Below are positions 13,316 through 56,330 of a DNA stretch of 64,000 bases, in pieces; within the stretch, counting starts at the first letter, position 1, and the number at the start of each line of letters is the position of its first letter. This DNA comes from Rikenellaceae bacterium (GTDB lineage Bacteria; Bacteroidota; Bacteroidia; Bacteroidales; Rikenellaceae): positions 1 to 64,000 of the forward strand of contig SUZN01000005.1 of assembly GCA_015059905.1 (NCBI GenBank). The letters run 5' to 3'. Made by a program: the position numbers and the translations under genes. Under the pieces are notes generated by a model. The model was not told the origin of the DNA. It made no database searches and saw nothing but the letters and a program-made list of their open reading frames with translations.

Positions 13316-13349
13316 TAATTCAAAATTCAAAATTCAAAATTCAAAAATT
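13316..13349. repeat. AATTCAAA tandem repeat (intergenic)
   Basis: AATTCAAAATTCAAAATTCAAAATTCAAAAATTT; related strings at 54468-54483 and 56252-56281. Confidence 0.7.
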
Positions 13350-52400: not shown

Positions 52401-52582
52401 GAGATTGCCACGTCGCTAACGCTCCTCGCAATGACGCTACTGCGGAAAGCATATCCCCTGGAGCGCAGCGACCAAAGTCCCCCTTTACAGAAAGGGGGAT
52501 TTAGGGGGATAGGTAACATTTGCCCCAATGGCGAATGCCATAGGCTGTGACTACGCCAATAAAAGCCGTAACAGTCACACAC
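52401..52582 (+). repeat. Interspersed repeat copy C
   Basis: gagattgccacgtcgctaacgctcctcgcaatgac...cccctggagcgcagcgaccaaagtccccctttacagaaagggggatttagggggataggtaacatttgcc. Confidence 0.88.
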
Positions 52583-54415: not shown

Positions 54416-54540
54416 ATCGAATTTTGCTTTTTTTCGTGAAATAATCGACAAAGATACGATATATAAATTCAAAATTCAAAAATTATGTAACACATTTATT
54501 TTTGTTTCTGCTGTGTTACCGTTATTTCGTACTTCATCGT

Positions 54541-54733
54541 CGGCGCAACCTATGGCATTCGCCATTAAAGCAAATCTTACCCAACGCCGCCGATAAGGCG
54601 AGAGCAGAGAATGCTTGCATACTATGCCGAGCCGAGGCGGTGAAAAGCCACCCTTGCGGTGGATTACCCCCTAAATCCCCCGCCTCAGGCAGGGGACTTT
54701 GGTCGCTACGCTCCAGGGGATATGTTTCCGCAG
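54541..54733 (-). repeat. Interspersed repeat copy D (diverged, inverted orientation)
   Basis: Reverse complement contains cccctggagcgtagcgaccaaagtcccctgcctgaggcgggggatttaggggg and aatggcgaatgccataggttg. Confidence 0.75.
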
Positions 54734-54806
54734 GTGGGTTAATCTCCTTGCTATTGATGAATAAGATTCCTACGCCCGCTATGTTCGCTCGGAATAACGG
54801 AAAAAC

Positions 54807-54842
54807 AAATGGTTGCCACCCTTCGTGAAGTGACAACCATTT
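54807..54842 (-). terminator. Terminator of small-peptide operon
   Basis: AAATGGTTG...CAACCATTT hairpin. Confidence 0.7.
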
Positions 54843-54862
54843 ATTTAGAGAATTACAAAATT

Positions 54863-55585
54863 TTACTCTTTGTAATTAAGATAAACCATCATAGGACTTT
54901 CGCCCTGACCGCCCCAGCTTGAGACCTTCACGCTCTGCACATCCTCGGCGGCAATGGAGCGCAACATATTTGCGAGCATCTGCGGCTGTGCTCTGTTCAT
55001 CCTTGAGTTAAAGTGCATTGTAACATTATCGCTTCCCGCAACCTTCAACCCACCATCAGAGAAATCAAACAACGGCAAATTTACCAGCACATCATAGAGC
55101 GACTTACCCTCATAGGCAGGATGCTTGCCGTTGATATTAAAGAGAATACTATTTCCGCTTGCCAAAGACTTATTGCCTGACGCCATCATCTTCTCCGCCC
55201 CTTTAACAATGGGTTTGAGAACAATATTTTTGTTCAATGGGCGTTTATTTGACGCATAAATCTCCTCAACATATTTTTCGAAACCAGGAGCGGAAACTTC
55301 TATAGTATAATTTCCAGTTAGTACTCTAGCTTTATATTCCCCTTTCTTATTACTTGATGCATCAAAAAAATACCAGCCATTATTCAATACAATAGTAGCA
55401 TTAGAAATAACCTTTCCATTCTCACTCTTTACGCAACCATTTACCGTACCCAAATCTTCATCTTGGAATCTCAAATTTGGCATCTGCATTTCACGCAAAG
55501 ACCCTATAATTCTATACTCGCCCTCTTGCGAATAAGAAATTATAGGCATTAGTAAAAATAGAACTACAAATAAATTAAATTTCAT
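54863..55585 (-). CDS. Secreted CarboxypepD_reg-like domain plus TonB-plug-like domain protein lacking a barrel
   Basis: Signal MKFNLFVVLFLLMPIISYS; TVNGCVKSENGKVISNATIVLNNGWYFFDASSNKKGEYKARVLTGNYTIEVSAPGFEK; then plug-like YEGKSLYDVLVNLPLFDFSDGG...MLRSIAAEDVQSVKVSS; ends at 240 aa. Confidence 0.65.
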   Translation of the reverse strand: MKFNLFVVLFLLMPIISYSQEGEYRIIGSLREMQMPNLRFQDEDLGTVNGCVKSENGKVISNATIVLNNGWYFFDASSNKKGEYKARVLTGNYTIEVSAPGFEKYVEEIYASNKRPLNKNIVLKPIVKGAEKMMASGNKSLASGNSILFNINGKHPAYEGKSLYDVLVNLPLFDFSDGGLKVAGSDNVTMHFNSRMNRAQPQMLANMLRSIAAEDVQSVKVSSWGGQGESPMMVYLNYKE

Positions 55586-55588
55586 AAA

Positions 55589-55828
55589 TTAATTATAACC
55601 AAAAATAATTTTACAATCCCAGCACATATATACAATTTCACCCGTATCAGCGATTGTAGACTTTACCGCTGCTTCTGACCCACAATTTGGACAAGGAGGC
55701 ACTTTTGAGACAATTGTCTGTGAACCAGGTCCACCCTCTACACCACTTGCATTTGCATCCATTGAAATTGCACACATTACAGCAGTTGCGAACATCGCAA
55801 CAAAAGCACATTTTAATAACTTTTTCAT
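55589..55828 (-). CDS. Small secreted peptide, NVEALA-like leader with zinc-ribbon-like C-terminus (copy 2)
   Basis: MKKLLKCAFVAMFATAVMCAISMDANASGVEGGPGSQTIVSKVPPCPNCGSEAAVKSTIADTGEIVYMCWDCKIIFGYN. Confidence 0.7.
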   Translation of the reverse strand: MKKLLKCAFVAMFATAVMCAISMDANASGVEGGPGSQTIVSKVPPCPNCGSEAAVKSTIADTGEIVYMCWDCKIIFGYN

Positions 55829-55853
55829 CTTAACAAATTTTTAGGTTATACTT

Positions 55854-56093
55854 TTAATCTATAAATCCAAAAATAATTTTACAATTCCAACAAAGATAGC
55901 AAATTTCTCCATTTTCATCTTTACACTGAATAACACCTGTATTTCCGCAAATCGGACAAGGTGGCAATTTAGAAACAATCGTCTGTGAACCAGGTCCACC
56001 CTCTACACCACTTGCATTTGCATCTACATTCAACGCACACAAAGCTGCCACAGCGAATGCTGCAACAAAAGCTACTTTCAAAAATCTTTTCAT
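55854..56093 (-). CDS. Small secreted peptide, NVEALA-like leader with zinc-ribbon-like C-terminus (copy 1)
   Basis: MKRFLKVAFVAAFAVAALCALNVDANASGVEGGPGSQTIVSKLPPCPICGNTGVIQCKDENGEICYLCWNCKIIFGFID. Confidence 0.7.
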   Translation of the reverse strand: MKRFLKVAFVAAFAVAALCALNVDANASGVEGGPGSQTIVSKLPPCPICGNTGVIQCKDENGEICYLCWNCKIIFGFID

Positions 56094-56330
56094 AATTACA
56101 AACTCTAATTTGATAATTTTCCCGTTTATTGACTTTAATCAGCAATACAAAATTAAACAAATATTTTCAAATTTTCCATATATTTCAAATATTTTTCTTT
56201 TTTTTCATTAACCCAACTTTATTTTACGTCTGCATCTTTGTAACACTAAAAATTTTGAATTTTGAATTCTTAATTTTGAATTACATTGTAACTTTCCGCC
56301 GAAAAGCCTCTTTTTTCGTAGAAAAAATAG

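Follow-up and report, generated by a model that had tools for sequence, protein, structure and literature searches.

A low-GC operon of two putatively exported Cys4 peptides and a barrel-less plug protein in a Rikenellaceae genome

Operon layout and transcription signals

The window, which is the whole stretch of DNA that was analyzed (64,000 nucleotides; positions 1 to 64,000 of contig SUZN01000005.1, assembly GCA_015059905.1), carries three tightly packed minus-strand genes at 54863-56093. These encode peptide 1 (55854-56093, 79 aa), its tandem paralogue peptide 2 (55589-55828, 79 aa) and a 240-aa barrel-less plug protein (54863-55585), with gaps of 25 nt between the peptide genes and 3 nt between peptide 2 and the 240-aa gene. 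The first-pass annotation, made from the letters of the sequence, had described a three-gene mini-operon, and the reading frames, their strand and the tandem peptides were all found exactly where it had placed them. The sister genome G032 also has a homologue of peptide 1, adjoining its copy of the partner gene.

On the 3' side of the operon, an inverted repeat at 54803-54846 (minus strand) forms a 19-bp hairpin, with a T run after it. Folding of 92 nt gave -30.1 kcal/mol (z -4.9) and none of 200 shuffles was equally stable, and hairpin and T run together make a convincing intrinsic terminator. On the 5' side of peptide 1, the exact Bacteroides promoter consensus was not matched. A weak candidate promoter of the Bacteroidetes type was read from the sequence at 56148-56180 (minus strand), consisting of TAATTTTG (56148-56155), a 21-nt spacer and TATG (56177-56180), one mismatch from TTTG. 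The sister genome G032 has TAGTTTTG at the corresponding place 5' of its peptide gene, and TAATTTTG is a plausible -7 box.

Insertion, recombination and flanking repeats

The operon is located between tgt and a glycosyltransferase gene, and its three genes have a GC content of 37-40%, versus 55-56% in the flanking genes. In 18 of the 21 congeners in which tgt was found, the glycosyltransferase gene stands directly head-to-head with tgt and no operon lies between them; the operon is therefore an insertion, which took place in the ancestor of the window genome and G032 or independently in each. The acquisition that had been proposed from low GC alone is thus borne out by the empty junction as well. 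Alignment of the window to G032 (locus L035) gave 96-100% identity over 600 bp (55101-55700) and ~70-95% in the flanks, a sign of recent between-species recombination within the operon.

An inverted pair of dispersed (AATTCAA)n repeats flanks the operon, with the left arm at 54466-54484 (plus strand) and the right arm at 56250-56268 (minus strand). The sequence AATTCAAAATTCAAAA occurs in 114 copies in the genome, versus 0 for a reversed-pattern control, and (AATTCAA)n may belong to a mobile element or serve in recombination. The heptamer repeat is also present at 13317-13342 of the window, and several of its copies form inverted pairs ~130-240 bp apart. Separately, imperfect inverted copies of an intergenic repeat were observed at 52447-52555 and 54538-54727 (36 nt at 94% and 51 nt at 78% complementarity); the intergenic repeat copy at 54501-54700 is absent from the same site in G032.

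The two peptides

Each peptide begins with a Sec-type leader that ends in DANA before SG; a Gly-rich core comes next, and then a tail of the form CPxCG...CWxC. In peptide 1 the predicted signal covers approximately residues 1-27 (56013-56093), followed by the core SGVEGGPGSQTIVSK (55968-56012) and a zinc-ribbon-like Cys4 tail (55857-55967) with two extra cysteines (57 and 65); in peptide 2 the signal, core and tail lie at 55748-55828, 55703-55747 and 55592-55702, respectively, all on the minus strand. The CPxCG motif occupies residues 46-49 and CWxC lies near residues 68-72. The first-pass description of exported peptides with a Cys4 tail agrees with the ordinary Sec-type signals predicted on both peptides and with the presence of both cysteine motifs in each. 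The predicted mature peptide is 52 aa long, acidic (charge about -2) and ~5.4-5.5 kDa.

The peptide genes are a tandem duplication, visible as a 176-nt direct repeat (74% identical, spacing 265), and the two proteins are 64% identical. The core had been called absolutely conserved, a claim that holds in part. Over a 44-nt stretch the two window paralogues are identical at every position, a pattern suggestive of recent gene conversion, and the absolute identity of the core is partly an artefact of comparing them. Between the window and the sister species in G032, the core shows 9 synonymous changes and 1 amino-acid change and is thus constrained at the protein level. The window copies of the core look recently homogenised, yet its conservation as protein sequence is real. 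In the distant homologue of genome G172, only SG..GP of the core is retained.

Searches of Pfam and NCBIfam placed the peptides outside every curated family at cut-off. The best matches were weak, sub-cut-off zinc-ribbon models (Lar, E 0.0023; NF048018, E 0.0012), and the Lar restriction alleviation protein family (PF14354) was rejected as an assignment, since its cut-off is 28.6 bits and the two peptides scored 18.6 and 15.7. An AlphaFold2 (AF2) model of the peptide showed a three-strand tail with local pLDDT 67-74, within a low-confidence model of mean pLDDT 58. The best Foldseek matches of this tail were zinc ribbons of the eIF2-beta/RPB9 type (probability ~0.9, with no E below 0.1). General disulfide machinery is reported to be absent from Bacteroides (PMC6671954), which would make metal binding likelier than disulfides in the tail, and we infer that the tail binds zinc. 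Searches of plasmids, phages and viral contigs with the peptides returned nothing or weak zinc-finger matches (e.g. primases), PHROGs gave weak zinc-finger matches at most, and PADLOC-DB (anti-phage defence) gave 0 families for any protein of the operon.

The leader had been likened to those of NVEALA-type peptides, with the NVEALA motif itself replaced. The hydrophobic leaders are indeed alike; the likeness goes no further, as PF14055 matched neither peptide and a search of the same genome to E 10 listed places in C11 and C10 and not C3 at 55.6-56.1 kb. The replacement of the motif stands: one peptide has NVDANA-SGVEGG and the other SMDANA-SGVEGG, and genuine NVEALA members in the same genome have ANLEALSQNE or ANIEALSQNE. 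NVEALA membership was rejected on the missing PF14055 match, the absence of an NVEALA/NLEAL segment after the leader and the absence of a propeller neighbor. A genuine locus in the same genome (L088, G000:C11:452500-471500) carries at least three peptides of the NVEALA type, whose tails are Cys-rich, adjoining TolB_like or 6-blade propeller genes; propellers were seen at the NVEALA loci only, and the tails of these peptides are far more variable than the leader. This arrangement, a leader peptide with a Cys tail and an envelope protein encoded alongside, parallels that of the window operon and raises the reading that the window peptides have a comparable role, as lineage-specific exported Cys-rich peptides for envelope metal handling or signalling, with the plug protein in the place of the propeller lipoprotein. 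The lack of profile match and motif, together with the different fold of the partner, makes this improbable; we place it next after the toxin/immunity reading given below.

The barrel-less partner protein

The product of the 54863-55585 gene begins with a signal sequence predicted to be cleaved between SYS and QEG, continues with a CarboxypepD_reg domain (~55211-55453, minus strand; Pfam PF13620, 1.3e-12) and ends with a plug domain (54866-55198, minus strand) that is followed directly by the stop codon. The C-terminal domain has no Pfam name and was recognized by profile-profile comparison to the plug region of 12 congeneric receptors (95 columns aligned, E 5.2e-13), of which 3 were checked and all 3 carry an OMP_b-brl_3 barrel. 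The barrel-bearing relatives are CarboxypepD_reg plus OMP_b-brl_3 proteins of ~800 aa. AF2 returned a two-domain model of good quality (pLDDT 83), and Foldseek recognized the N-terminal domain as transthyretin-like. By the profile comparison, the protein corresponds to an OMP_b-brl_3-type receptor's N-terminal extension together with its plug. It had been annotated as a CarboxypepD_reg-like domain followed by a TonB-plug/secretin-like domain and a stop, and all of this was recovered except the secretin-like (STN) part, which was not detected.

The reading frame of the partner stops at residue 240, no barrel reading frame follows downstream, and the protein has equal length in the sister genome G032. 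At the expected site of the TonB box, where the receptors have a VVVxA segment, all six barrel-less rows of the alignment have MMASG, MKGKG or VAAAS instead. The partner has no lipobox. A glutamine directly follows the predicted signal in all distinct barrel-less proteins, and the Bacteroidetes Q-rule marks exported proteins (PMC10653852).

These absences, and the four of seven such genes that have no peptide nearby (see below), tell against the dedicated outer-membrane adaptor that the first-pass annotation had proposed. A more specific form of that idea is that the plug protein docks in the barrel of an endogenous receptor and helps to drive the peptide through the outer membrane, by analogy with the receptor Oar and its cargo PopC. 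Oar likewise has a CarboxypepD_reg extension and a plug and is needed for PopC secretion (PMC6434023), and the genes of the window operon are translationally packed. Oar-dependent secretion requires a barrel and a TonB box (PMC6434023), neither of which the partner possesses, and the four plug genes without peptide cargo nearby also count against docking and export, which we regard as very improbable.

Occurrence of the peptides and the partner in Alistipes

Most of the genomes searched are draft assemblies, and the family is very small, which leaves few cases behind any general rule. Among 180 Alistipes genomes, 3 carry peptide genes (four in total) and 6 carry barrel-less partner genes (seven in total), with two short plug proteins that run off contig ends (G036 and G162) left out of the counts. 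The four cysteines are present in 4 of 4 peptides, and one of the peptide matches is named, being from an Alistipes MAG from water buffalo rectum. Across 250 genomes of the family the peptide model found no credible further member. Family-wide matches at E up to 0.05 were weak stretches and were not counted; none of the 6 inspected showed an exported Cys4 peptide, and 2 of the 6 (L094 and L096) read by eye like DNA-glycosylase-type proteins. For the partner, a search model built from six of its seven members separated the seven from the next matches, which were receptors, by >200 bits, and an earlier four-row model ranked the same seven at the top. An order-wide sample of 344 genomes yielded no further barrel-less member at E 1e-18. 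In a tree the barrel-less proteins grouped apart from the receptors with support of 100/100, on long branches.

At all 3 peptide loci the barrel-less gene lies immediately downstream, at a gap of 3-6 nt, so that the linkage is kept in every peptide-bearing genome. In G172 the pair is found at another locus, adjoining pgk, and both of its proteins are only ~26-32% identical to those of the window; the separate locus and the low identity indicate that the association is old and not a recent copy.

Both the plug protein and the peptide are under purifying selection: by a simple Nei-Gojobori calculation on these short sequences, dN/dS between the window and the sister genome G032 was 0.086 for the plug protein and 0.21 for peptide 2. 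The C-terminus of the partner coincides with the exact start point of the receptors' barrel linker, as would be expected if the 240-aa gene were a truncated receptor remnant and the peptides chance neighbors. This reading is disfavored and stands as the least probable of those considered, given a dN/dS of this order over 240 codons, seven full-length monophyletic members with no internal stops and far from the receptors, a downstream region with only the terminator and no barrel remnant, and the recurrence of the peptide link at the unrelated G172 locus.

Four of the seven barrel-less genes stand without a peptide gene (a second copy in G032, and those of G166, G126 and G093). The second G032 gene (L036 7154-7903, G032:C56) is 31-33% identical to the first. 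No open CxxC...CxxC frame was found as a peptide remnant 5' of the peptide-less plug genes. The G166 gene lies at the same site as that of G172, and the peptide gene is absent from the syntenic stretch. The G172 peptide has an in-frame TAA within its signal (a nonsense mutation or an assembly error) beside an intact partner. The orphan plug genes, the G166 absence and the G172 stop indicate that the peptide relies more heavily on the partner than vice versa, and the plug gene has either its own use or outlives the peptide. The peptide-less gene of G126 (L073 2199-3749) adjoins a gene that reads by eye like a queuosine-precursor transporter; tgt, beside the window operon, is also of the queuosine pathway, and this is probably coincidence.

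The same pattern is what favors the main rival as to purpose, a toxin/immunity pair, in which a bacteriocin-like zinc-ribbon peptide would enter competitors through an OMP_b-brl_3 receptor and the plug protein would confer immunity as a soluble decoy. The partner is always beside the peptide yet alone in 4 of 7 cases, like orphan immunity genes; in G172 it is the peptide that is broken; and the operon is a low-GC insertion with a recent between-species recombination tract. Set against this, the mature peptides are acidic, unlike typical membrane-active bacteriocins, and neither an export gene nor a double-glycine leader nor a modification enzyme lies nearby, which leaves the exit of the peptide from the cell unexplained. 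We consider this rival live, though on balance unlikely.

Proposed function

Gene structure, domain identity, the export signals of the partner, linkage, selection and insertion can all be read from the sequence; that the two proteins bind each other, and where they are located, is what we infer. We see about an even chance that the operon encodes a two-part exported module, in which the peptide is bound by the free plug in the periplasm. In this module, the peptides would pass through Sec and be cut after DANA, and the Cys4 tails of the released acidic peptides would fold as small metal-binding (zinc) ribbons. The partner would also be exported by Sec and remain soluble in the periplasm. With neither barrel nor TonB box, the plug could not act as a transporter gate; most likely it would instead have become a binding partner that holds, protects or neutralises the co-translated peptide within the envelope. 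The peptide itself could serve communication, metal handling or competition. A further and more speculative proposal, which we advance tentatively and rate as rather improbable, is that the plug, freed from its receptor, serves in soluble form in the periplasm as the receptor or immunity protein of the co-encoded exported zinc-ribbon peptides, and that this hitherto undescribed pair of peptide and decoy plug is passed among Alistipes species through insertion and recombination.

Plug domains are almost always studied within the barrel. A small family of free-standing plugs, kept under selection and linked to exported peptides, would mean that the plug is reusable as a soluble binding domain, and would offer a pair open to testing in a gut genus from which few peptide systems are known. 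Should the peptide act on other cells, it would constitute a means of competition by a short peptide that has no exporter of its own; should it not, it would be a second, unrelated design alongside the unexplained NVEALA peptides.

Comparison with known systems

OMP_b-brl_3 (PF14905) receptors have a CarboxypepD_reg domain and a plug homologous to the partner along its full length; the partner differs in lacking the barrel and the VVVxA segment, in its size (240 versus ~800 aa) and in forming a separate clade. Oar and PopC resemble the window operon in that a protein with CarboxypepD_reg and plug domains is functionally tied to an exported protein; Oar of Myxococcus xanthus has a full barrel and a required TonB box, and its cargo PopC is a protease (PMC6434023).

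Small zinc-ribbon families (Lar PF14354, the N-terminal ribbons of IS1/IS1595, TFIIS/RPB9) share the CPxCG...CxxC tail with the peptides, with weak profile and fold matches. Those families are cytoplasmic nucleic-acid or polymerase proteins; the window peptides instead carry signal peptides.

Bacteroidetocins are likewise small peptides of Bacteroidetes that have four cysteines and are encoded on acquired DNA. Their loci encode a double-glycine leader of ~15 aa, an ABC peptidase-transporter, a TM protein and usually a thiol oxidoreductase (PMC6671954). The window operon differs from these loci: its leader is a 27-aa Sec signal, and the flanks hold tgt and the glycosyltransferase gene and none of these three proteins.

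The NVEALA (PF14055) peptides with their TolB_like/DUF5128 propeller lipoproteins are alike in being short exported peptides with a hydrophobic leader, a Cys-rich tail and an envelope-protein gene next to them. The window peptides differ in having a conserved Gly-rich core and a plain Sec cleavage site, and a receptor plug takes the place of the propeller lipoprotein as their partner.
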